Shown here: piece by piece, positions 219 through 22,781 of the stretch
How positions within the stretch are numbered: the stretch's first letter is position 1
Layout of the letters: every line of letters starts with the position of its first letter
Source: a virus
Virus record (IMG/VR): IMGVR_UViG_3300035698_018660
Location: 1-25,807 of that record
DNA: 25,807 nucleotides
Direction: 5' to 3' (one strand)
Position numbers and translations under genes: made by a program
Notes under the pieces: model-generated
Databases searched by the model: none
What the model was told of the DNA's origin: nothing
The model's input: the letters and a program-made list of their open reading frames with translations, nothing else

Positions 219-647
219 TTACCTCATCAATGTTCCACAAGGAAACTGCCAATGTGTCAACCCTGCTTTGTCATATAGATGTTTTGATAATTCTATCTGA
301 ATAAAAGGATCATTTTTCTTTGTCCAGTCAACCGGTGTTCCGTAAACCTCAGTCCACATCCACGCATAAGTGCTATTGATCATTTGGAATATTCCACTCG
401 CTGTTGAAATTGGATTTTTTGCATCAACATCTGGAAGTCCATCTTTATGCTGATCAGATTCACATAGAGCAGTTCTTTGTAAATCTTCCGGCAACTCTCT
501 AAATTCTTGTTCCCAAGTTTTCACCTCTACTATTACTATTTCTATCTCTTCCAATTGAACTTCTTCCTTTGTTGTCTGAGCAAACACCGGAAAAGCTAGA
601 AGCAACAAAATTATAATTATAAATATTAGTGTTCTTTTTATAAGCAT
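219..647 (-). CDS. Secreted lysozyme-fold muramidase / lytic transglycosylase-like protein
   Basis: A 142-residue protein, last gene of the lysis block. Residues 5-24 form a hydrophobic signal peptide or signal anchor ending in FPVFAQ. An acidic linker follows, then a small lysozyme-fold domain: ALCES (60-64) puts Glu63 at the expected catalytic position, SGIFQ (84-88) is the usual substrate-cleft motif, and HWQFPC lies near the C-terminus. Cys62 and Cys137 could form a disulfide. This arrangement is typical of SLT/Rpf-like transglycosylases that cut peptidoglycan glycan strands. The sec-type signal suggests it reaches the wall without needing a holin pore. No ribosome binding site is visible before the ATG. 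The exact family is uncertain; the lysozyme-like fold is fairly sure. Confidence 0.78.
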   Translation of the reverse strand: MLIKRTLIFIIIILLLLAFPVFAQTTKEEVQLEEIEIVIVEVKTWEQEFRELPEDLQRTALCESDQHKDGLPDVDAKNPISTASGIFQMINSTYAWMWTEVYGTPVDWTKKNDPFIQIELSKHLYDKAGLTHWQFPCGTLMR

Positions 648-738: not shown

Positions 739-1764
739 TTATTTCAAGGCTTGAAGTGATTTGTTCCCAAAGAAATGACCCTTTAAATCGAGCAAAAATT
801 CCTTATTATCAACATTATTATCTAATTGCCACCTAAGAACTGCATCGGCTGTAATAGCTCCGTAGTAGCCAGTTAATGAGATATTTTTAGGAAAGTATCC
901 TTTGTTTTGCAAGTACCTCTGTATCTCTTTTATTTCTTCATTAGTATCTCCGAGCTTTTGAGGTTTTGTTATAAAGTATTTTTCAGAAGTGTTAGATGAT
1001 TCAAATTGAAAATTCATAAGATAACCTGCGTAGTAATTTCTTCTTGAAAAGAAATCTTCTGACACTAATCTTCTGCCTTCTTTCCCTTTGTTTCCCCACG
1101 AGTCTTCAATAAGCAAAAACTTTTTTCCATTGATTAAAAAGAAGTCTACACAAGTAACAGAATGTCTGACACTCGCTGAAAATAAATTAGTTTGTGTATC
1201 AATTAAAGAAGGCTCAACTTTATCCCATTCCTTGAAAGAACCCCAAAACCAAACCATAACACCTTTGCCAGTTTTTTGAATAATTGAAGCAACTGCATCA
1301 ATATCATTTGATGGTGCATGGATATAATTTTTTATTTTAAATACTTCTCCAACTTTTCTATAATGTTTTTTAATTAAATTTCTGTGGTCGTTGTTGTTTA
1401 TAATTTTGTTTGGATATAATTGTGCAAGTGTAATACCACCTGTCTTTAAAAGATTAAAAGCATCATCAGAACCCATGCCGGCAGTGTTATTTATTCTTCT
1501 TTCATATAAGTCGGATGCACTGAAATCAATCCACTCTCCTTCTTCTTTTAAGTGAGTGATCGCCATTAGTTTAGCCAAAGTAAAAGCAACGCATTGGTCG
1601 CTGTTCCCTTGATTGTATATAGGATATTTATTCCATTCTGATTCTTTCTTTTCTTTCCAGTTAGGAGTATCAGCAGATGCTACAATTTCTCTAAAAGAGT
1701 AATCTTTTATTTTTTCTTCTTCTGGGCGTGTATCAATTAACGCTCCATTATAATTTTCACTCAT
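739..1764 (-). CDS. Papain-like (C1) cysteine peptidase with C-terminal peptidoglycan-binding domain; putative endolysin
   Basis: A 341-residue, two-domain protein. The first ~255 residues look like a C1 papain-fold peptidase: NQGNSDQCVAF (51-61) holds the oxyanion Gln52 and nucleophile Cys58, RHSV (200-203) gives His201, and IEDSWG (219-224) matches the papain NSWG motif with Asp in place of Asn. Residues 270-320 match a PG_binding_1 repeat (NEEIKEIQRYLQNKGY, then TGYYGAITADAV). There is no signal peptide, so export would need the holin. Its position among holin-like genes suggests an endolysin cutting wall peptides or proteins. Papain-fold enzymes are unusual as phage endolysins, where CHAP, amidase and lysozyme folds dominate. 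A role in prohead or tail maturation is less likely given the wall-binding domain. Confidence 0.75.
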   Translation of the reverse strand: MSENYNGALIDTRPEEEKIKDYSFREIVASADTPNWKEKKESEWNKYPIYNQGNSDQCVAFTLAKLMAITHLKEEGEWIDFSASDLYERRINNTAGMGSDDAFNLLKTGGITLAQLYPNKIINNNDHRNLIKKHYRKVGEVFKIKNYIHAPSNDIDAVASIIQKTGKGVMVWFWGSFKEWDKVEPSLIDTQTNLFSASVRHSVTCVDFFLINGKKFLLIEDSWGNKGKEGRRLVSEDFFSRRNYYAGYLMNFQFESSNTSEKYFITKPQKLGDTNEEIKEIQRYLQNKGYFPKNISLTGYYGAITADAVLRWQLDNNVDNKEFLLDLKGHFFGNKSLQALK

Positions 1765-1765
1765 A

Positions 1766-1942
1766 TTATTTTCCTAAATAGTTATTGCTTTCATTTCCTT
1801 TATTAGAAAAGTAAAAAGTGAAAGCCATTGTTGCTAATGTTAAAAAGTCTTTTGCCTCTACGATGCCAAAAAAAGTAAGTCCGATAATGGCCACTGCCAT
1901 TCCTACAAAAACTATTTTTGAAGCTGATTCAAATATATTCAT
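1766..1942 (-). CDS. Small two-segment membrane protein, holin-like
   Basis: A 58-residue ORF starting at an ATG at 1942 and ending one base before the peptidase start. It has two hydrophobic segments, about residues 10-27 (IVFVGMAVAIIGLTFFGI) and 33-46, and a short polar tail (NKGNESNNYLGK). Size, topology and position between other membrane genes and a lytic enzyme suggest a holin or holin partner. No family-specific motif is visible. An alternative is a spanin-like accessory, but no lipobox is present. Confidence 0.65.
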   Translation of the reverse strand: MNIFESASKIVFVGMAVAIIGLTFFGIVEAKDFLTLATMAFTFYFSNKGNESNNYLGK

Positions 1943-2090: not shown

Positions 2091-2408
2091 TTATTTCCGA
2101 TCAATTTTAGAAGACAAAACATCTAATAAGATGCTGGCAACTCTATTAAGTCCGGCCATTCCAAGAAACGCTCCAATGGCAGAGAATAATACTACTATAA
2201 TTTGGTTATCAAATAAAATAAGTGCGATCATCCCAAAGATTGAACCAGCAAATGAAGCCAGAAGAAACAATATCCAGAAATCAACAGCATTAAATTGCAG
2301 TTTTGTATCTCTTGCGATTTTTAACTGACTTGTGGCGTGGACAATTGAACCGAAGAGGATGACTCCGAGTACAATGATCATGTGGTAAATTTCTGGTATT
2401 AGCTTCAT
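2091..2408 (-). CDS. Holin-like membrane protein
   Basis: A 105-residue protein with three likely membrane segments: about residues 8-25, 44-65 and 70-88. The tail is charged (SKIDRK) and there is a basic, hydrophilic loop after the first segment (KIARDTKLQF). Length, topology and place at the head of the lysis block match phage holins with three helices (LydA/holin class I type), which form the membrane lesion that releases the cytoplasmic endolysin. No signal peptide for secretion and no enzymatic motif are present. It is first in the block, about 50 bp after a possible leftward promoter. Confidence 0.65.
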   Translation of the reverse strand: MKLIPEIYHMIIVLGVILFGSIVHATSQLKIARDTKLQFNAVDFWILFLLASFAGSIFGMIALILFDNQIIVVLFSAIGAFLGMAGLNRVASILLDVLSSKIDRK

Positions 2409-3947: not shown

Positions 3948-6590
3948 TTATTCAATGTAACCATTTACTTGATCTATGTCAATTGCTCCTGTTTTGTAAA
4001 GTCTTCGAGCAATGTCATTAAATCTTTCTGTTAATTCTTCTTTTGTCGGATAATTAATCTTTGCTTCCAATTCTTCAAAGTTTACAATCTTTGCTTTTTT
4101 GAAACCTAAAGAGTTGTCAATAAAGTTTACCGGCACACCATCATTATATAATTCTTTTATTACATCCCATGAGTCAATGTGATTTCCGGCAACAACATTT
4201 GAAGGAACAAGTCTTCCACCTTCTTCTGGATTTGATAACATTCTTTTTACTACTCCATTTTCAAATGAGTCAAAAGGATCTCTGTAAACATAATTGATAA
4301 CAACATCTTTTCCGGCTTGAACAGCTTCTTCAATTTTCTTGACTGCTGACTTCATGCTTGAAAGGTTTGAGTCTAAAATTACAGCAGATTTACTCATGAT
4401 GTCCGTAACTTCTGGAATACCTTTTACTGCTGAAGTCTTTCCAGTTCCACTACCACCTGCAAGGAAAGAAGCATACTGACCATCTTGTTTTAATGCTTCA
4501 GTGTAAGCTTTTTTAGCTAAGTAAGAAGAAGGTTCTTGAACAGAAACAGCATTATATCCTACATACCCTTCGTCTTTAAAGAGTGATCGAAAATTATCAG
4601 TGTTGATTACTTTTCCATTTGTTCTTCTGTATTCTTCCAGAAGGGAAGGCTCATTATCTATAATTTTTTGGAAAGACTTTGTTTCTACTAATTTATTTTC
4701 TTTTGAAAGATTTGGTGACTTGTCAAAATCAGTCATCTTTACTGCTGTTGGATTATTACCTTTGACTGTTTTAGGCACAGTTGCCGAACTAAAAGACTTA
4801 CCACCTAAAGCTTCTTCAATTATATCTTCAAATGCTTTTTGTCTAACTGCATTACTTCTACCTGCCATTTTTCTACCGGTATCCATAAGTAACCCTTGAA
4901 TATTTCCGGCTTTTTCTATTCCAGAAGTTATCTGGCCTTGAAATCCTGTCTTTGGAGCAATGTCATAATATTTTTCAAGTATATTATAAAAGTCCACAAG
5001 CTCTTGCGTGTTAAGTCCTGATTTTCCAGTTTTTGCTGTCGCTTCATCAAGTTGTTTTAGGACCTGTTGAATTTTAGGATTTGTTTGTGCAAAACTTGTT
5101 AATCTTCTTGCCAAAAGACCTGCACTCATTTCCAAAATATCATCATCAGCACCATCGATCCCTTTCATGAATTTTCTGATTTCAGTAAGTGGAGTAACAA
5201 TTTTACTGTATTGTGTATTTAATTTTTTATAGTTTGAATTTTTAGAATCTAAAACATCTGACAATGATGAACGAATTGCTTCGTAAGCTCTTTCTTGAGT
5301 GTCGGTCATATTAGTAAGTGATTTCTTTTTACCTCCTAAAATCTCAAATAGTTCCTGTCGTAGTAAGTGTTTTGATTTTCCAGATCCATCTTTAATAGAC
5401 TCACTGAAAGCTTTTTGAATAGCACTTTGATCAGCCTTTGATAAATCAGAAGCTAGATTAGTTAATGAGAAATCTAATTGTCCAGAAGCAGACATTGATA
5501 TTTCTTTTAGTCCAGAAACTCCTTGCAGTTTACTTAAAATTACTGGAGTGATTTCACTTTGTGAAACATCGCCAAGTGACTCAGAAATTTCTCCAAGTTT
5601 TTTACCAACAGTTTTTCTTTCTGCTTCAAGTTCTTTCAATCTTCCGACAATAGGTTTTCCAACCACTTCAATTGGATTTTTTGTAGATCCACCAGTTTCA
5701 AATTGTTTAACAACATCAGCCAATTGTCTAAGAGATGATTTTTGTTCTTTTGGTAAGTTGTAAATTCTTTGAACATCTAAAATATCAACTTCATCTCTAA
5801 CCGCTTGTTTTGCCTTTTGAGTTGGAAGTTTTTTTACTAATTCTTTAGTGGCTTGTGTTGCTTCGTTGTTTGATTTTACTCTTCGTGGAATATCCATAAC
5901 TTCTTGTCCCATATTTTTTAATGGTTGTACTATACCTTTTACTATATTTAAAGTACCAGAACCAACCTCATTAATAGTAGGTCCCATAGATTTAACAGCA
6001 TCCACTCCTTTATTAAGAGCTTCACCGGCAACCTCTTGAAGTGGTTTTTTAATAAGACCTCCTGTTCCAATATCAAGAGCAAGTCCTAACCCTCCCAAAG
6101 TTGCATCGACATCTCTTCTTTTCACATCATCAAGGTTTTGATACCAAGTCATAACTTCTTGAACCGGTTGTGTGCCTGCTATTTTTTCAACTCCAGTTTC
6201 AACAACATCTCCGATAGCTTCTTGATATTTTTGTGGAGTCAAAGATTTCATTACACCCATAGATGTTTCTCCGATAATATCAGAAGCAAAACCAGCACCT
6301 TGTCCAAATTTTTGCAAAAGTCCTCGTGCTTTTGTTTGCTCTCCTCGTTGAACAGCTTCATCTATTTCTCCAAAAGTATCTGATCGCTTAACAGCTGAAT
6401 TTTTAATTCCTGTTACAATACCTTTAAGATCAGCAACGAAACCTTCGTCTGGCTTAATTCTGTTTCCATAGTCTGGATATTTTTTCAGAGTTTTTTCTCC
6501 AATTTCACGATCTGAAATACCACCATATTCCGGATATTGTCGTTTAATTTTTTGTCCAAATTCTTCTAATGTCAATTTATTTCCATCCAT
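3948..6590 (-). CDS. Large internal virion (ejected) protein with C-terminal zeta-toxin-like kinase domain
   Basis: An 880-residue protein. The N-terminus (about 1-45) carries a duplicated QYPEYGG / KYPDYGN motif often seen at the start of long phage virion proteins. Residues 100-600 are mostly helical and Lys/Glu/Gln-rich, with Ala/Gly-rich amphipathic stretches, as in ejected inner-core proteins. Near the end lies a P-loop, GGSGTGKT (712-719), then VILDSNL and a VYRDPFDSF segment with downstream basic residues, in the order seen in zeta-toxin/UDP-GlcNAc kinases. The preceding NGKVINTDNFR segment also fits that family. It is co-transcribed with another internal virion gene. Inference: it is injected with the DNA, where the kinase domain could act on host wall precursors or resident defences. 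Kinase activity is unproven. Confidence 0.7.
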   Translation of the reverse strand: MDGNKLTLEEFGQKIKRQYPEYGGISDREIGEKTLKKYPDYGNRIKPDEGFVADLKGIVTGIKNSAVKRSDTFGEIDEAVQRGEQTKARGLLQKFGQGAGFASDIIGETSMGVMKSLTPQKYQEAIGDVVETGVEKIAGTQPVQEVMTWYQNLDDVKRRDVDATLGGLGLALDIGTGGLIKKPLQEVAGEALNKGVDAVKSMGPTINEVGSGTLNIVKGIVQPLKNMGQEVMDIPRRVKSNNEATQATKELVKKLPTQKAKQAVRDEVDILDVQRIYNLPKEQKSSLRQLADVVKQFETGGSTKNPIEVVGKPIVGRLKELEAERKTVGKKLGEISESLGDVSQSEITPVILSKLQGVSGLKEISMSASGQLDFSLTNLASDLSKADQSAIQKAFSESIKDGSGKSKHLLRQELFEILGGKKKSLTNMTDTQERAYEAIRSSLSDVLDSKNSNYKKLNTQYSKIVTPLTEIRKFMKGIDGADDDILEMSAGLLARRLTSFAQTNPKIQQVLKQLDEATAKTGKSGLNTQELVDFYNILEKYYDIAPKTGFQGQITSGIEKAGNIQGLLMDTGRKMAGRSNAVRQKAFEDIIEEALGGKSFSSATVPKTVKGNNPTAVKMTDFDKSPNLSKENKLVETKSFQKIIDNEPSLLEEYRRTNGKVINTDNFRSLFKDEGYVGYNAVSVQEPSSYLAKKAYTEALKQDGQYASFLAGGSGTGKTSAVKGIPEVTDIMSKSAVILDSNLSSMKSAVKKIEEAVQAGKDVVINYVYRDPFDSFENGVVKRMLSNPEEGGRLVPSNVVAGNHIDSWDVIKELYNDGVPVNFIDNSLGFKKAKIVNFEELEAKINYPTKEELTERFNDIARRLYKTGAIDIDQVNGYIE

Positions 6591-6595
6591 AAAAA

Positions 6596-8005
6596 TTATA
6601 AGTTAAGGTTTAGGGGATCGCTCTGTACTCCGATACCTAAAGGATCAGAATTTAAACTACCACCAGCGTTTAAAACGGCTCTCTCTGTTAGCATTTGAAG
6701 TTGATCTAATTCTTTCTTAAAGGTTGCTTCGGTTGTTTTGTAGCCTACGACATTTCCGTTTTTATCAGTTTGTCGCCATGTTCCAATCCTTGAAGCTGAA
6801 GAGTTTAGCATAGCCAACTCTTTTTCAGACAAAGCACCCAGAGTTCCACCTGCTTTTTTCAAATTTACTAGCGTGTCCAATGTTTCTCGTGAAACTAATT
6901 GCTCTACTCCGGCAACGAAATCACCCTTTGATCCAGTAAATTTATTAAATAGATTAAATCGTGCTAAAGCGTTTGGTCCAACAGCATTTGCTGATCCGAT
7001 AGATGCTGAAAGTCCAGAAATTTGTCCAATTTTGTCTTTCAACACTGGAAGAACTGCCTTACTTGCATCTTCCGCTTCTTGAGCTGTTACAGCGTTTTTA
7101 AGAGCAAAAGAAAGGCTATCCTCCTCTCTTCTTAATACAGAAGAATATCTTGCCAACTCTTTTTGTCTTATAAAAGATTTTTCAGATTGTTTTTCTTCAA
7201 AAGATTGTTGAGCTTGCATTTTTTCACTCTCAGTCATGTCATTTTGAACAAAATCGTAAAGTGTTTTATAAAGACTTACTTGTCGAGCATCCTCATCTTT
7301 CATGTCTTGAATTCTATCAGTCACAGTCTTTTCTGCTGAAATAAAATCATTATTTGCTACATCATATTCAATTGATTTATATGCAAGATTTCTGTTTGTG
7401 TCTTCCGTAAGTTTATTAATTTCATTATTAATAGAACCCATTGAACGACCTTCTTTATTTGAATTTTTTAACTCACCTTTTTTTTCTTCATAACCCACAC
7501 GAATAGATCTCATTTGATTTAACAATTGATTTGATATTCTTCCTTTTTCTTCAACATTTGCATCTTTTCTAAGTTGAGCTTTTTCTGCTGTATTGTCTTT
7601 ATTTAAAGAGCCAAGAAGAGCTTCTTGAATCTGGTCCTTCATTGTTTTTTCTTTTACAACCGGAGTTGTTGCTACTGGCATAGGCTTGTTTTCTTGTGAA
7701 GTGGCCATTGCTGAAGCATTAAAGCCGGCATTTGCCACTGGCATAGTATTTTCTCTAACAACATTTTGAACTTGATTTACATTAGATGTTTCCTTATTCA
7801 GAGAATCGGCAGGGATGGGAGTCATTGTGTTTGAAGCTCTTGTAATTGTTTTTGGAGAAACAAAACCATCTGTTCCATCAAGTTTTGTAATATTAGCTCC
7901 AAATTTTGGGCTAGAATTTAAAGTGTTTTGAAATTTGTTTATTTCATTTATTTGTGAGCTTTTTGCTTCACTTCCGAATATATTTTGTAAAAAGTTTTTT
8001 GCCAT
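6596..8005 (-). CDS. Internal virion / ejection protein
   Basis: 469 residues from the ATG at 8005; the upstream in-frame TTG at 8014 is less likely. Residues 1-120 are low-complexity, rich in Asn, Pro and Thr. From about 125 to 320 the protein is long-helical and highly charged (EEKGRISNQLLNQM, then MQAQQSFEEKQSEKSF). The C-terminal third has an LKKAGGTLGALSEKELAML stretch that recurs in phage ejection proteins, and the protein ends in a short Leu/Asn tail. Position between the nozzle-like gene and the 880-residue virion gene matches the inner-core genes of podoviruses. It has its own extended -10 promoter just upstream. The function follows from context and composition rather than a catalytic motif. 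Confidence 0.65.
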   Translation of the reverse strand: MAKNFLQNIFGSEAKSSQINEINKFQNTLNSSPKFGANITKLDGTDGFVSPKTITRASNTMTPIPADSLNKETSNVNQVQNVVRENTMPVANAGFNASAMATSQENKPMPVATTPVVKEKTMKDQIQEALLGSLNKDNTAEKAQLRKDANVEEKGRISNQLLNQMRSIRVGYEEKKGELKNSNKEGRSMGSINNEINKLTEDTNRNLAYKSIEYDVANNDFISAEKTVTDRIQDMKDEDARQVSLYKTLYDFVQNDMTESEKMQAQQSFEEKQSEKSFIRQKELARYSSVLRREEDSLSFALKNAVTAQEAEDASKAVLPVLKDKIGQISGLSASIGSANAVGPNALARFNLFNKFTGSKGDFVAGVEQLVSRETLDTLVNLKKAGGTLGALSEKELAMLNSSASRIGTWRQTDKNGNVVGYKTTEATFKKELDQLQMLTERAVLNAGGSLNSDPLGIGVQSDPLNLNL

Positions 8006-8016
8006 AATTGTCAATT

Positions 8017-8027
8017 ATTATACCACA
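8017..8027 (-). promoter_or_regulatory. Extended -10 promoter for internal virion genes
   Basis: Leftward TGTGGTATAAT (8027-8017), preceded by a second TGTGGTATA copy (8036-8028), with 11 bases between the -10 and the ATG at 8005. No good -35 is seen at 15-17 bp. The repeated element may be a duplicated -10 or a partial operator. Confidence 0.55.
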
Positions 8028-8036
8028 TATACCACA

Positions 8037-10061
8037 TTAGATTGCGTCAATGTGTTTTTTGTTTGTTAATGTTATCTCTTCTATCGTCACATCTATACCT
8101 CTCATTTCAACTTTTATTTCCAAAAACTTTGATTTAGATCCAATAGGTTTTGAAAAATAATTTTTATTTGCATTTGGTGTTGTTGATGTGATCACTGCCA
8201 ATTCTTTGTAATTATCAACATTGAAACGAATGACATCACCAGAAACAGCAAAAGGAAAAGCTTCTTCTAGTGTGACAGTATAAGTTCCTGTACTTAAACT
8301 AATTGTGGATATTGTTGACATGTGTCCAGAACCTACGCCAGCAATAATTTCAACCTCATCACCAACAGAAGCCAAAGACATATCAACGACAGTTGTGAAA
8401 ACAGTTGTACTTGTCCAAACACCATTCCACGAACTTGTAATATTTCCTGTTATAGAACTAAAAGGCAATCCCACTTTATCAATTTCTTTATATTTAATTA
8501 TGATTTTATCTTCTACTTTTAAAGGCTTGAACTTCACATAAATATTTGAATATTCATCAATAATTCTCGGAGAAGATAATTTAGGCATAACAAAATATCC
8601 ACGATTAGGAAGGAAAGGAGAAACACCATTAATTACAGTCAAATCAGTCGCAGAATTTTGTTTTGAATAAAGATCTGCTGTCATGCAAATTCTTCCAGAT
8701 CTCGTGCTGTCAAATAAAACATTATTTAATACAGCCATAGACATATTATTGTCATAAGCACCCCAACCGAAATCAGAAGAAGCAAACACGAACCAACTTT
8801 GTCCGACTGCTCCAGCTCCAGAAATATCAATTGCTGTCCCTGCGATTGCATTTGCATAAGTTGTGGCCAATTTAAATACAGTTGAGCTTATTTTTATAAA
8901 GTAATAAACAGTTGACTCTTTCAGTTCGTCAATTACTGGAGTGGCTCTATCAAACAAAACATACATTCCGGTTGAGTAATTATTTAAGTTACCAGAAGTA
9001 AGCGTGAAGTTATTTAAAGAAGTATCAACTGTTACATTTGAACCAGAAATATTTCTAACTTTTGAAGCACTCGGAGCATATCTGTGGTAAAGAGAATTGT
9101 TTGTAAAATCAAAGCACCATATTCCAGAAAGGAAATTTGGAAGAATTCTTAAAATACCATTCTCAGTTAAGCTTGAGATATTCATATAAACCAAGTCACC
9201 ATCTGTGACCATTGATCTGTTTGTGGCTCTTGAAGCCGAGTTTTGTTTGTCGGCCCATTCAATATCAGAATTGTATACCGGCAACTGTGCCAAAGAATCA
9301 AAACCACCTCCATTAAAATAAAGAAGTTGCCCTAAAGATGTCAAACATATAACTGAAGATTTAAAAGGCTTCATTGTGAAAATTTCAAATGTTCCTACGC
9401 CGAAAGCGAACTCAATACCTACTTGAATTGTTGAAACTGTAAATAATTTTGCTTCACCTCCAGACAAATTTCTTGTTGCAATGTAAAGTGTGTTTCCAAC
9501 AGTTGAAAGGGAAGTGACATAATAACTTGAAGGAAGAGTTAGAATTGTTCCACTTACTGCCCACGCTGTACTAATAAATTTAACAATATTTCCACGAGCC
9601 ACAACTAACGAAGCTTCAGACTCCCAAGCTGTCATAACAAAAGGAGCTGTCACCGACATAGAAGTTGATACTGTTGTCCATGTAGTAGATGCTGAACGAT
9701 AAAATATACTTGCTCCATCAGAAACAACTTCTGTTCCATTAAAATAAACAACATCATCATCAAGTGAAGGAGATGGTGAATTTGTGTGAGAAGAGATATT
9801 TTGAAAAATGTCCAAATCCAAAGTTCCACGAAAAACTTCATCAGAGTTTATATAAACTTGTGAGGCAGAAGCCAACATAGCATCGGCACTATCAAGCGAT
9901 GCATCATCTTCTGTTGTCATTACAGCAAAAGAAGGCTCAGACAATTTTATATATCCTTCTTTATCTAAATTAATATTTCTTGATCTTAAAATAGTACCAG
10001 AAAAATCAGATTTATTATCTTGAAGATGTGTTTTTGTTTCTTGATTTGGTATTACAAACAT
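8037..10061 (-). CDS. Tail nozzle-like structural protein, beta-rich
   Basis: A 674-residue protein, very rich in Ser, Thr, Val and aromatic residues in short alternating strands, with repeated 'W/F-x-G/N-G' turns, which suggests a beta-propeller or beta-sandwich. It has no membrane segment or enzymatic motif. The opening (MFVIPNQETKTHLQDNKSDF) and the ILRSRNINLDKEGYIKLS segment look like the first blade of podovirus tail-nozzle/hub proteins, and its place downstream of the adaptor and fibre genes and before ejection genes fits that. The C-terminal ~150 residues look like a separate carbohydrate- or adhesin-type domain. An alternative is a receptor-binding tail protein. Confidence 0.6.
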   Translation of the reverse strand: MFVIPNQETKTHLQDNKSDFSGTILRSRNINLDKEGYIKLSEPSFAVMTTEDDASLDSADAMLASASQVYINSDEVFRGTLDLDIFQNISSHTNSPSPSLDDDVVYFNGTEVVSDGASIFYRSASTTWTTVSTSMSVTAPFVMTAWESEASLVVARGNIVKFISTAWAVSGTILTLPSSYYVTSLSTVGNTLYIATRNLSGGEAKLFTVSTIQVGIEFAFGVGTFEIFTMKPFKSSVICLTSLGQLLYFNGGGFDSLAQLPVYNSDIEWADKQNSASRATNRSMVTDGDLVYMNISSLTENGILRILPNFLSGIWCFDFTNNSLYHRYAPSASKVRNISGSNVTVDTSLNNFTLTSGNLNNYSTGMYVLFDRATPVIDELKESTVYYFIKISSTVFKLATTYANAIAGTAIDISGAGAVGQSWFVFASSDFGWGAYDNNMSMAVLNNVLFDSTRSGRICMTADLYSKQNSATDLTVINGVSPFLPNRGYFVMPKLSSPRIIDEYSNIYVKFKPLKVEDKIIIKYKEIDKVGLPFSSITGNITSSWNGVWTSTTVFTTVVDMSLASVGDEVEIIAGVGSGHMSTISTISLSTGTYTVTLEEAFPFAVSGDVIRFNVDNYKELAVITSTTPNANKNYFSKPIGSKSKFLEIKVEMRGIDVTIEEITLTNKKHIDAI

Positions 10062-10219: not shown

Positions 10220-11623
10220 TTAGAGATTTTTACTTCTATTAATCCAGCTCTCTGTATTTTTATCAGTATTTGTTGCGGATGAGTTATTTTTGTCAAAAGG
10301 CAACCTCCACCCTGTTGTTTTGACTATTACATTTATCATTGTAACAACAAAAGTTGCAGTTGTCGCTTTTATACTTAGTGCCACACGAAACAAATTATCA
10401 ATTCCTGTTAGTGTGAATGTTCCAACTGATGCAATGATCCCAAAACCTTTTACCAAAATTGCATTAACACCAGTCAAAACAAATGTTGCCACCTCTGCGA
10501 TCAGATTTTGACCTTTTGAAAACAAGACACTAATTCCTGTAAGGATGAAAGCACCTGTATCTGCTATAAGTATTTTTCCTCTTAATAGGGTTACATCTAT
10601 TCCAGTCAAAACAAATGTCCCAACTGAAGCGATCAGTAAACCACCGGACCGGAAGACAATCTCTACTCCTGTAAGTGTAAATGTTCCAAGTGATGCAAGT
10701 AATCCAAAACCATTTCTCAATGCAGAAGCAAATCCTGTCAAAACAAATGTTCCGGAGCTTGCGATTATTGTCAAAGCAATTCTGAAAATATTATCAACAC
10801 CAGTCAAAACAAATGTCCCAACTGAAGCAATCATTCCCTTGCCTTGAATTAGGGTTGCATTTATTCCAGTCAAAACAAATGTCCCAACTGAAGCAATCAT
10901 GTTTCTACCTATTTTTAAGAGATTTGCAACACCAGTCAAAACAAAGGTCCCAATTGAAGCGATCATTGGATAATTTACACTAAAAGGATGTGATAATCCT
11001 GCACCTCCGTTGTATAAAGTGGTAACTTCTGCTGATGTAAGTGCTTTGTTCCAGATACCTACTTCGTCTATTTGTCCGTCAAAGTAGGAAGCTGAAACCA
11101 CACTTGAGCGACCTATTGAGACTAAGTGCGAAGATGTTTTCATCGTTCCAGTTTTTGCTACTGCAGTTGCATCACTTACACCATTTAAATACAGTTTTAT
11201 ATTAGTACCATCCCAAGTATATACAGCAAAATACCAAACACCTGTGGAAAGACTTGTTCCACCAGTTATGTACGCTTCAGTAGTAGTCGCCACCGTAGCC
11301 TGTAATTTATTGCCGTTAGTTACTCTAAATAATTGATTAAAAGTAGTGTTGTCTGTCTTACCTATCATGAATTGATATGCTCCGAGAACATCTAACTTTA
11401 TCCAACAAGCTACTGAAACTGCTGTATATGCAGAAAGCAAAGATGTCCCTACAGTTTGACATTGATTAGAACCATTAAGTGTCAGAGCATTGTTTATTTT
11501 TCCTGCTGTAAAGGTTGCTGTTCCTACATTTGTACCATTATTAGAACCTGCACTATCAACAGCGTTTCCAGATGCCTCGTCTAGTTTCCAGTAAGATACT
11601 AAGTTTGTTAGTAATGATGACAT
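10220..11623 (-). CDS. LamG-domain tail fibre / adhesin with ten 22-residue repeats
   Basis: 467 residues. The first ~215 form a LamG/concanavalin A-like jelly roll: LVSYWKLDEASGN (8-20), a VSVACWIKLD strand, WDGTNIKLYLNG and the closing IDEVGIWNKALTSAEVTTLY, all hallmark segments of that fold, which often binds glycans. Residues 220-439 are ten tandem 22-residue repeats of the type (M/L/I)IASVGTFVLTGV(N/D)xxxxxG, probably stacking as a beta-solenoid or fibre shaft. The last ~28 residues are polar. The head is N-terminal and the repeat shaft C-terminal, opposite to most tail fibres, whose tips are C-terminal. Likely host binding on the virion surface. The shared repeat is common in phage structural proteins. 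Confidence 0.75.
   Translation of the reverse strand: MSSLLTNLVSYWKLDEASGNAVDSAGSNNGTNVGTATFTAGKINNALTLNGSNQCQTVGTSLLSAYTAVSVACWIKLDVLGAYQFMIGKTDNTTFNQLFRVTNGNKLQATVATTTEAYITGGTSLSTGVWYFAVYTWDGTNIKLYLNGVSDATAVAKTGTMKTSSHLVSIGRSSVVSASYFDGQIDEVGIWNKALTSAEVTTLYNGGAGLSHPFSVNYPMIASIGTFVLTGVANLLKIGRNMIASVGTFVLTGINATLIQGKGMIASVGTFVLTGVDNIFRIALTIIASSGTFVLTGFASALRNGFGLLASLGTFTLTGVEIVFRSGGLLIASVGTFVLTGIDVTLLRGKILIADTGAFILTGISVLFSKGQNLIAEVATFVLTGVNAILVKGFGIIASVGTFTLTGIDNLFRVALSIKATTATFVVTMINVIVKTTGWRLPFDKNNSSATNTDKNTESWINRSKNL
10307..10966 (-). repeat. Ten 66-bp tandem coding repeats
   Basis: In-frame units of 66 bp within the LamG protein gene. Best conserved is the part reading ccagtcaaaacaaatgtccc on the plus strand (about 10606-10621, 10801-10820, 10867-10886 and others), coding GTFVLTG. 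Outer copies are more diverged than central ones at both protein and DNA level, so the array is old but has probably had local duplication or conversion. Confidence 0.85.
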
Positions 11624-13215: not shown

Positions 13216-14073
13216 TTAAGCTCCTAGTGTAATATCAACAATAAGTGATAATTTTGGGGCCCATAATTTGAATCCGATGTAACCATAAGTTACAACTTCT
13301 CTACCAGTTTTTCCTGATACTTCTTTTTCTTCAAATCTAACTCCTCGTGGTGAAGCGTAAGTAGCAACTCCTTTCACTCCGAACACTCTGTGTCCAGCAT
13401 TTGTGTAAGTAGTTGTTCCTAGTGTTTCATCTGCGAAAGTTCCAGATCTAACAACATAAATATCAACACCCATGTAAGAATCCATGAATCCGTTTTTAAG
13501 TGCTGAATCTGCGAAATTAAATCCGTTTGTAGCTTGTGCTTGTACGAAACCAACAACATCAGTGTTTTCAATTACAAGGAAAAGTCCTTTGTAAACATCA
13601 GCAAATCCGGCAACTTTTGAGATAAGGTTGGCCATGATTGGGTTAACATTTGCAACTGTTGTAAATCCGCCGGCAGGAGTTGTGTAAGCTCCTGTTGCAT
13701 CTTCTGTAAGGTTGTTAAGAACAAATCTATCAATCTTAGTTGCAACTTGATAAATAGTTTCATCTACTCTAGATGCAAATATATCAAAGTTAGTAAGAAT
13801 GTCTTCAAAATCAAAGATGTGTTCTGCAACAATAACTTCGTCAGTTACAGTCAAAGTGTCATCAGTTGTAGTGTAATCAGAGATTGAGTAAGTTCCAGTA
13901 ATAGCTTGAACAGTTGCTACTGGTTGTGATCCGTATGGTGATTGAATTCGTTTGCTGTCTGTACGATCAACAGAACAAATTTTTTCTGAAACAAGTCGAT
14001 TTCTCAAAGATTGTTCCAGTGTAGCTAGCTTGTATTTGTCACGGTATGTTCGTGAACTAATTGTATTGGCCAT
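13216..14073 (-). CDS. Major capsid protein, HK97-like fold
   Basis: 285 residues. The N-terminus is a helical arm (RTYRDKYKLATLEQSLRNRL), followed by a strand-rich region (GTYSISDYTTTDDTLTVTDE), a spine-helix candidate (DETIYQVATKIDRFVLNNL, 103-121), an A-domain-like segment with PIMANLISKVAGFADVYKG, a VIENTDVVGFVQA segment, YMGVDIYVV and a closing VVTYGYIGFKLWAPKLSLIV. This order is that of small HK97-fold coat proteins of short-tailed phages. It follows directly on an acidic scaffold gene, and its place in the head gene order supports the call. No maturation protease gene is seen, so cleavage is not evident. Confidence 0.8.
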   Translation of the reverse strand: MANTISSRTYRDKYKLATLEQSLRNRLVSEKICSVDRTDSKRIQSPYGSQPVATVQAITGTYSISDYTTTDDTLTVTDEVIVAEHIFDFEDILTNFDIFASRVDETIYQVATKIDRFVLNNLTEDATGAYTTPAGGFTTVANVNPIMANLISKVAGFADVYKGLFLVIENTDVVGFVQAQATNGFNFADSALKNGFMDSYMGVDIYVVRSGTFADETLGTTTYTNAGHRVFGVKGVATYASPRGVRFEEKEVSGKTGREVVTYGYIGFKLWAPKLSLIVDITLGA

Positions 14074-21346: not shown

Positions 21347-21790
21347 TTAATTATTTTTATTTTTAAAGAAATTACCCTCAATGAATCTCTTATAATGAAC
21401 AGAGTCTTTTGTCACAAACCTTCCTAACAAAGCTGTGGCCATAGAACCTGCACTGTCTTTATAATAATATCTATTCTCATGACACAAAGCAGACAGCTCT
21501 GAGTAAACAGAAAGATTAGTCTTTTTTATGTAAGGTTTTTTCTTTGGGAGAGAACTACTTCTGCATTGTTCGTATTTTAATTGTGATCTTACTGATAACC
21601 ATCGGTGAAGATCTACTTTAACATTTGATTGCCAAAACATTTCCACAGTTTTTTTAAGTCGTGGAGTTTCTTGAAAGGTCCAGACAGCAGAAAGTCTTTC
21701 CAAAGATTCCACACTTGTATTTTTAAATCCAGACATTATTAGAAAAACAGCTTCATCAATCAAACAAGTTTTGTAGCTATTTTTTCTCAT
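21347..21790 (-). CDS. Hypothetical protein between primase and ATPase
   Basis: 147 residues, starting with an ATGA overlap to the primase stop, so it is translationally coupled. It is basic and soluble, with a helical region (ESLERLSAVWTFQETPRLKK), a central SLPKKKPYIKK linker and a terminal FFKNKNN. Two Cys residues do not form a clear zinc motif. In this slot it may be a primase or helicase accessory, perhaps the missing primase helicase-binding part, but I recognise no family. Confidence in the gene is high, in function nil. Confidence 0.7.
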   Translation of the reverse strand: MRKNSYKTCLIDEAVFLIMSGFKNTSVESLERLSAVWTFQETPRLKKTVEMFWQSNVKVDLHRWLSVRSQLKYEQCRSSSLPKKKPYIKKTNLSVYSELSALCHENRYYYKDSAGSMATALLGRFVTKDSVHYKRFIEGNFFKNKNN

Positions 21791-22701
21791 GATAATTTTC
21801 TTATGGCCTCTTTAAAAGAAGCATCCTTATTAAGCTTTCTATAAATATCAATTGCATCGTATGGCCTACCGCATCCACCGAAACAATATGCAGTGTTGGT
21901 TTCTTGATTATAATAAAGAGAAGGAGTCTTTTCTTTATGGAAAGGACAGCACGCTTTTTTGGCACGATTAAATTCAATTAATTCTGGAATTGGAAATTGC
22001 TTCGCTTTTGCAACAAGACTGTCAGCAACCTTTTTTGTTGAAGGAGTGTATTGCATTTTCTCATCTTCTTTTAACCACGCTTCATGAAAGAAACAATCCT
22101 TCCAAAGGCTTCTTCTATTGGACATATCCTCACGAACATCAAGGACATTTTTTGCTGTCCGAACAAGATCATGAAGATTTCCACCATTAAGCACATAGTC
22201 TGAAATGTCTTTAACACCAGAACGAGTTGGAAGAAACAGTAGTTTTACTTTATCAAGGCCAAACATTTTAGCTGTCTTTGCCATCCCTTCACCTCCGGCT
22301 TTGTCATTATCAAAGCAAAGAATAATTTCTTTGTCCTTTAGCATCTCTACCCACTCTTCTTTAAAAGACATTGCTCCACCAGTTGAGGTGACTGCCGGAA
22401 TATTATGACTCCAACAAACAAGACAATCTTTTTCACCCTCAACGAACAACACTGTCGAAGAATTTTTTGCTTGGAAATATCCATACAAATTAACAAACCC
22501 TCCACGATCATAAGAATATTTTGGGCCACTAATGATTTCTGGGCTTCTTCTATATTTATTAAAAATAAAATTACCTTCACTATCAACGACAGGAAAGGTA
22601 ATTAATCCAAAATCATTTGTGTGGATTTGAAAATCTTTTAAAACTTCTTGAGTTATTTTTTGCTTTTCTAGCCAGTCAGAATGATTTTTATTTAAATGCA
22701 T
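21787..22701 (-). CDS. DnaG-like primase with permuted domains (TOPRIM first, CHC2 zinc domain last)
   Basis: 304 residues from the ATG at 22701, seven bases after a -10 box; an open GTG-led frame to 22767 covers control repeats and is rejected. Residues 20-75 (FGLITFPVVDSEGNF ... KYSYDRGGFVNLYG) match the region before TOPRIM in phage primases. TOPRIM motifs: FVEGEKD (86-92), LCFDNDKAG (128-136) and KDISDYV. After a ~75-residue linker comes PIPELIEF and the CHC2 domain: CCPFHKEKTPSLYY (251-264) with Cys252 and His255, CFGGCG with Cys273 and Cys277 (one residue more than the usual CFGCG), then FKEAIRKLS, as normally follows a CHC2 domain. In DnaG the CHC2 domain is first. It makes primers at the fork; the order is unusual. 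Confidence 0.85.
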   Translation of the reverse strand: MHLNKNHSDWLEKQKITQEVLKDFQIHTNDFGLITFPVVDSEGNFIFNKYRRSPEIISGPKYSYDRGGFVNLYGYFQAKNSSTVLFVEGEKDCLVCWSHNIPAVTSTGGAMSFKEEWVEMLKDKEIILCFDNDKAGGEGMAKTAKMFGLDKVKLLFLPTRSGVKDISDYVLNGGNLHDLVRTAKNVLDVREDMSNRRSLWKDCFFHEAWLKEDEKMQYTPSTKKVADSLVAKAKQFPIPELIEFNRAKKACCPFHKEKTPSLYYNQETNTAYCFGGCGRPYDAIDIYRKLNKDASFKEAIRKLS

Positions 22702-22708
22702 GTCTAAA

Positions 22709-22736
22709 ATTTTAGCACGCAAAACTTTTAACGCAA
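22709..22736 (-). promoter_or_regulatory. Leftward primase-operon promoter
   Basis: TTGCGT (22736-22731), 16-bp spacer, TGC-TAAAAT (22717-22709), seven bases before the ATG at 22701. The TTGCGTGC motif (22722-22715) adjoins the -10, as at 2424-2431. The mRNA is likely leaderless. Confidence 0.5.
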
Positions 22737-22753
22737 ATGTGGATAACTTTAAA

Positions 22754-22781
22754 TTGATTTTTAGCACGCAAACGATATAAT
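22754..22781 (+). promoter_or_regulatory. Rightward promoter of the early operon
   Basis: TTGATT (22754-22759), 16-bp spacer that contains the second repeat, TATAAT (22776-22781), six bases before the GTG at 22788. Proteins bound to the repeat would cover this spacer, so the same protein could control both divergent operons. Confidence 0.6.

Follow-up and report, generated by a model that had tools for sequence, protein, structure and literature searches.

The locus at the left end of this viral DNA raises the question of whether a papain-family peptidase with a cell-wall-binding domain, encoded beside a protein with a signal peptide, serves a phage as an endolysin, and whether the two proteins work as a pair. 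The DNA analysed (hereafter the window) is an IMG/VR virus record of 25,807 bases, and its family matches for terminase, major-head and tail-fibre proteins identify a tailed phage. In the order of transcription, the minus strand of the left end encodes a holin candidate (2408-2091), a 58-aa membrane protein (1942-1766), the peptidase (1764-739) and the signal-peptide protein (647-219). The features are listed below; the rows are those of an alignment of relatives.

219..647, minus strand: protein of 142 aa with a signal peptide or anchor, tentatively lysozyme-superfamily-like (sequence pattern, CES/FQ motif, profile matches)
739..1764, minus strand: C1 peptidase with a C-terminal PG-binding domain, candidate endolysin, 341 aa (Pfam, fold model)
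814..942, minus strand: PG_binding_1 domain of the peptidase, residues 275-317 (PF01471, E 9.6e-9)
1102..1104, minus strand: codon of Asp221, which replaces the usual Asn (Asp in 15 of 16 rows, Glu in one)
1162..1164, minus strand: codon of His201, catalytic base position (invariant in 16 of 16 rows)
1591..1593, minus strand: codon of Cys58, nucleophile position (invariant in 16 of 16 rows; aligned with the cathepsin catalytic Cys)
1609..1611, minus strand: codon of Gln52, oxyanion-hole position (invariant in 16 of 16 rows)
1766..1942, minus strand: small membrane protein of 58 aa, holin or holin-partner candidate (conserved beside C1 genes)
2091..2408, minus strand: holin candidate of 105 aa with three hydrophobic segments (phrog_6384 holin, E 5.3e-5; hydropathy)

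The reading frame at 739-1764 starts with ATG, and its N-terminus (MSENYNGALIDTR) has no hydrophobic stretch. The Pfam search assigned residues 46-227 to Peptidase_C1 (PF00112; E 4.4e-9, 37.2 bits against a cut-off of 20.7) and residues 275-317 to PG_binding_1 (PF01471; 35.7 bits against a cut-off of 23), and the CHAP and NlpC/P60 profiles gave no match at E values up to 1. An AlphaFold2 model, built from an alignment of 15 sequences, had a pLDDT of 85.6 and a pTM of 0.83. Its top match in the PDB was xylellain (3ois_A; Z 25.9, rmsd 2.7, 235 aligned residues), covering residues 1-253 of the model and including the N-terminal stretch, and the 50 PDB matches listed were papain-family chains with Z scores from 19.8 to 25.9. 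The sequence-only reading, which had proposed structure prediction as a check, was thus borne out on the papain fold by profile and model together, on the wall-binding domain, and on the cytoplasmic start, for which a signal peptide is absent. Catalytic and wall-binding domains without a signal peptide are the features expected of an endolysin. We filed the protein in peptidase family C1 as a putative Asp variant because the profile and the modelled fold fit and because the Asn of the triad is usual in this family, not strictly defining.

Alignment to cathepsin S, procaricain and cathepsin K placed Cys58, His201 and Asp221 on the Cys, His and Asn of papain, and none of the catalytic residues appears misplaced, which the earlier reading had named as a possible flaw. 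Its substitution of Asp for Asn was likewise confirmed, the usual Asn being absent. In the alignment of 16 rows of C1 relatives, which counts the window's own row and omits an identical copy (L014), two intein-bearing genes (L017, L020), two fragments (L025, L026) and distant relatives, Ser222 was also invariant. Eight further rows had Asn (six), Gly (one) and Asp (one) at the third triad position, giving 16 Asp, one Glu, six Asn and one Gly in 24 rows when L017, L025 and the distant relatives were included. In the phylogenetic tree, the Asp and Glu rows clustered together with support values of 83/97, which is below the star level of the tool, and the four states of the third residue required three changes, the minimum possible, to be read with caution for the long branches flagged by warnings (L070, L074 and L027). 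From this grouping, Asp at the third position marks a subfamily and is not an isolated change.

The catalytic Cys is also the site of inteins in two relatives. In L017, an insert at 6002-8026 (intein domain E 1e-13) has intein-splicing and LAGLIDADG matches, and the catalytic Cys is the first residue past it; in L020, an intein at the same Cys was recognised by eye at 6968-7663, where the contig ends inside the intein. Inteins habitually occupy the active sites of essential proteins. Their position at this Cys suggests that the residue and the C1 gene matter to both phages. As a separate observation, another C1-bearing phage (L005, 4686-6908) appears by eye to have an intein-like insert in its terminase large subunit.

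Relatives of the peptidase were found in 14 IMG/VR records, in one GenBank phage (MW202577.1) and in genome contigs assigned to Jorgensenbacteria (L022), an uncultured bacterium (L023), WOR-3 (L024), Parcubacteria (L025) and a Bacteroidetes MAG (L026). For the IMG/VR records and the genome contigs, alignment queries were productive, whereas most scans for close relatives with single proteins were not: P0001 and P0003 had no relatives and P0008 found its own record only. One of 50,697 phage records matched the peptidase at E <= 0.01. The claimed rarity therefore holds for this subfamily but not for C1 peptidases of phages at large: 15 phage records match the more distant C1 protein of Thermoanaerobacterium phage THSA-485A, and a search of predicted viral structures found C1 proteins of several tailed phages, the first of them A0A6J5MXS7 (Peptidoglycan binding-like).

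In the order of the Jorgensenbacteria genome G001, which holds L022, 5 of 150 genomes matched the C1 part, G001 included; four of the matches had E values of 3e-15 or better and one of 8.5e-6, and G1060 holds two copies. Because just two of 379 genomes in the phylum of G001 matched, G001 itself and G174 (E 1.7e-8), the gene is rare in that phylum. Four of 299 genomes in the phylum of G007 matched (best E 2.3e-7), as did eight of 296 in the phylum of G005, where G005 itself, with the L026 fragment, gave E 1.6e-39 and the others 4.1e-6 or weaker. A renewed search of seven genomes reported no Peptidase_C1 beyond the known loci, a weak negative, since it failed to recover the copies already identified in G001, G002 and G1060.

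Two genomic copies lie at apparent prophage ends: in L070 (G1008) the C1 gene is accompanied by an integrase gene and then a Mur ligase gene, and in L074 (G174) by an integrase gene and then rpiB and transketolase genes. The copy in L023, located directly after obg and before an M23 peptidase gene, looks like part of a host chromosome, and the two peptidase genes there (7004-9854) may be what is left of a prophage or a lysis pair that was captured. On the Parcubacteria contig L025 (255-1333), the C1 gene is broken by an internal duplication and a frame change and lies beside a holin-like ORF. The fragment in the Bacteroidetes MAG (L026) is at the extreme end of a 5-kb contig, where it overlaps with an ORF of ABC type, and by eye it is similar to the copy in L023; we suspect a chimera and did not count it as host evidence.

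The neighbourhood of the gene suggests a function in lysis. The holin candidate, two genes upstream of the peptidase, has 31% identity over 87 aa (E 4e-10) to the product of L018 6622-6963, which is encoded upstream of the L018 C1 gene and matches Phage_holin_3_3 (LydA) over the cut-off. The 58-aa protein has no Pfam family at E 0.1, and it shares 41-48% identity with the copies adjoining the C1 genes of L002, L022 and L018, in which the pattern SASK...FYF...NKG is conserved, and 43.6% with the copy in L074. To extend this to the whole set, we counted small membrane ORFs by a simple hydropathy rule (fewer than 150 aa, a hydrophobic segment, at most 300 bases from the gene, same strand). Such an ORF adjoined the C1 gene in 16 of 22 loci (the exceptions being L006, L009, L015, L016, L023 and L024). 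Of the remaining ORFs of 200 aa or longer in these loci, 13 of 130 had such a neighbour (Fisher P 1.7e-9, a value that is too small since the C1 relatives are not independent; the simplicity of the hydropathy rule is a further limit). It is therefore probable, in keeping with the earlier reading, that the peptidase gene sits in a lysis cassette.

The secreted partner fared less well. The protein at 219-647 begins by eye with a classical signal-peptide pattern (KR, a long hydrophobic run, VFA|Q), as claimed, but its label as lysozyme-like is weak. Alone, this protein (P0002) had no credible Pfam match, and neither it nor its relatives reached the cut-off of the SLT, Rpf or lysozyme profiles. 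The CES and FQ of the CES...FQ motif, with Glu63 of CES coded at 459-461, were invariant in five of five aligned rows, and a profile of five relatives matched RpfC (E 0.004) across the Glu region and lysozyme C (E 1.3e-4) only at profile positions 81-137, past the Glu. The fold model was poor (pLDDT 59.7), and a fold search with it found nothing at E <= 0.001. These matches hint at a lysozyme-like protein.

A second wall-enzyme candidate within 3 kb of the C1 gene was found in 9 of the 22 loci. Five are lysozyme-like proteins with CES...FQ (the window, L002, L015, L022 and L070) and the others are an SLT (L006), a Glucosaminidase-like protein (L074), an Amidase_3 (L016) and an M23 peptidase (L023); the SLT, Amidase_3 and M23 candidates, three of the nine, passed the Pfam cut-off. 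In the other 13 loci, no second wall enzyme was recognised by visual inspection, by motif or in Pfam searches of selected ORFs; at L005 and L069 the flanks available for this are short. The pairing in the sequence-only reading thus recurs but is not obligatory, and the peptidase looks like the constant element, with the second wall enzyme optional. Two further observations concern these loci: in L074 (8608-9759) DUF5675 takes the place of PG_binding_1 on the C1 peptidase, a domain swap within the putative lysis enzyme, and L006 (7878-8738) has a tmRNA gene and four tRNA genes shortly past its lysis genes, of which the tmRNA and three tRNAs were confirmed by Rfam.

With the domains, fold, aligned triad, conservation and gene neighbourhood computed here, we consider it probable that a tailed phage uses the protein at 739-1764, a cysteine peptidase of the papain family, as its endolysin. 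Because it lacks a signal peptide, it would accumulate in the cytoplasm until the holin (candidate at 2091-2408, possibly with the 58-aa protein at 1766-1942) opens and lets it cross the membrane, and PG_binding_1 would then bring it to the wall. Its Cys-His-Asp triad may there cut peptide bonds of the envelope, either in the stem or cross-link peptides of peptidoglycan or in proteins fixed to peptidoglycan; the choice of bond is a guess because our searches found no C1-family peptidase with proven peptidoglycan cleavage. The protein at 219-647 would be secreted through Sec and is likely to cleave the glycan strands, and the two enzymes may jointly attack the peptide and glycan parts of the envelope.

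For the substrate, the sequence-only reading had suggested that the target may be a surface protein layer or an unusual cross-bridge. The peptidase may instead of an endolysin be a genuine protease acting on surface-layer proteins or others anchored in the wall, leaving the lysozyme-like partner alone to cut peptidoglycan. The nearest solved folds are general proteases, and the domain matches the PF00112 profile but neither CHAP nor NlpC/P60, as would suit such a protease. In addition, three genomes of 0.8-1.1 Mb that hold C1 relatives contain further stretches matching the PG_binding profile, often in long open frames (6 in Jorgensenbacteria G001, 10 in the uncultured bacterium G002, 11 in Parcubacteria G004), so that surface proteins of the host may be anchored in a similar way. 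The comparison with Bacillus (3 in 4.6 Mb) and Spirulina (6 in 7.3 Mb) is, however, biased, because the three genomes were picked for matching, and where no partner was recognised, in 13 of the 22 loci, the peptidase would have to suffice. We therefore regard a protease confined to surface proteins as possible but rather doubtful. Still more tentative is a broader form of the idea, in which Patescibacteria phages of unrelated packaging types would share a constant papain-family lysis endoprotease that strips a protein layer, guided to wall-anchored proteins by a PG_binding domain like that of the host surface proteins, and would use a variable second enzyme for glycan.

Two alternatives place the enzyme outside lysis. 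It might be carried in the virion to open the envelope at entry: the gene comes after structural genes, tail proteins can bear wall enzymes (for example the papain-like amidases of tyroviruses, PMC9703825), and in L007, L010 and L011 the C1 gene is directly 3' of a gene for a protein of 1,068-1,101 aa. Yet the peptidase is small, is encoded as a protein in its own right and has a wall-binding domain, a membrane ORF adjoins its gene in 16 of the 22 loci, the gene is near an integrase gene in two probable prophages, and nine long upstream proteins in other loci, those in which no partner was recognised, have no Pfam wall-enzyme domain at E 0.01; an entry enzyme is thus improbable. Tailed phages often require maturation proteases, and family scans identified no other such protease in the window, so that a role in head or tail maturation was also considered. 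The C-terminal wall-binding domain and the location of the gene with the holin candidate, not with the capsid gene (13216-14073), make this role very improbable. An endolysin acting from the cytoplasm remains our preferred reading.

As for the host, Patescibacteria appear to be the best-supported hosts of the C1 family, since relatives are found in their genomes and two of these (L070, L074) lie at apparent prophage ends, and the family is apparently not exclusive to them because the L024 contig was binned to a WOR-3 MAG. For the phage of the window we infer a Patescibacterium as the somewhat favoured host, probable and not certain because its terminase is closest to those of phages of Bacteroides, Cellulophaga, Polaribacter and Flavobacterium (about 36-41% identity). 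The idea of a single lineage for all C1-bearing phages is unsupported, as the window's terminase had a match in none of the 22 C1-bearing records or genomes, an empty result that is itself weak.

Some other features of the window are recorded here. An 880-aa protein (3948-6590) with a C-terminal Zeta_toxin kinase domain has 32% identity over 811 aa to a protein of MW202577.1, and its kinase region is also related to a protein of L006; the kinase is fused to what may be a virion protein. The product of 10220-11623 has a Laminin-G domain followed by ASVGTFVLTG-like repeats, perhaps a fibre or decoration protein. In the primase-like ORF at 21787-22767, PHROG match ranges place the TOPRIM-like part ahead of the CHC2-like zinc finger, which is at the end of the ORF, whereas the usual arrangement is the opposite.

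Lysis by Patescibacteria (CPR) phages seems little described. Searches of the open literature, as far as its text was accessible, found no description of the lysis enzymes of Patescibacteria phages and no paper describing a C1 (PF00112) endolysin. In term searches of two papers on Patescibacteria/CPR phages, PMC12911398 does not mention endolysin, holin, lysozyme or papain, and PMC13059738 does not mention endolysin, peptidase, lysozyme, lysis or papain; a C1 endolysin is also absent from the papain passages of PMC5411513, PMC9862828 and PMC13379245. A candidate papain-family endolysin that occurs in several otherwise unlike phages is a specific protein whose action could be assayed on an envelope rarely available from culture.

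Among the closest known systems is MW202577.1 (ctPCi537, Manatee Spring; protein UOF78884.1), which is like the window in domain order, in the Asp of the triad, in the small membrane protein adjoining the peptidase gene and in a nearby gene named lyZ1. It differs in its gene order, which runs peptidase, membrane protein, lysozyme; its peptidase is 28% identical, and it has no match to the window's terminase. In phage THSA-485A, where the two adjacent genes are Tsac_2838 and Tsac_2839, the C1 peptidase gene (PF00112, 47.5 bits) begins 15 nt past the gene of a lysozyme endolysin with GH25 and PG_binding_1 domains. Its C1 protein differs in matching only PF00112, PG_binding_1 being on the GH25 enzyme instead, in having Asn by eye in the triad, and in being distant from the window's peptidase. 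Judged from these sequences, THSA-485A is an independent case of papain and lysozyme in one phage, and its named laboratory host, Thermoanaerobacterium saccharolyticum JW/SL-YS485, makes it a system for dissecting the pair.

Other likenesses are by description. PMC3314691 ascribes domain N5 of mycobacteriophage endolysins to the papain family, as the first of its kind in endolysins; N5 shares this ascription with the peptidase at 739-1764 and differs in being C39-like by the authors' table. PeiW and PeiP (PMC4592898) are cysteine peptidases that serve phages in lysis and combine a Cys-His-Asp triad with a domain that binds the wall. They differ in their archaeal pseudomurein substrate, their N-terminal binding domain and their likeness to transglutaminases, and by analogy they set a precedent for phage wall lysis by a cysteine peptidase with this triad. 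The CHAP and NlpC/P60 endolysins share the papain-like clan, wall cleavage and use by phages (PMC10318531) and belong to families other than PF00112. Finally, PMC10380794 reports xylellain-type C1A peptidases acquired by Myoviridae and Siphoviridae. Compared with xylellain, the top fold match, the peptidase of the window has 19% identity, an added PG_binding_1 domain, Asp instead of Asn, and a lysis context. Xylellain-type peptidases in tailed phages are thus already known, and what appears to be new is a probable wall-binding papain-family lysis enzyme with a Cys-His-Asp triad, in phages tied mostly to Patescibacteria.
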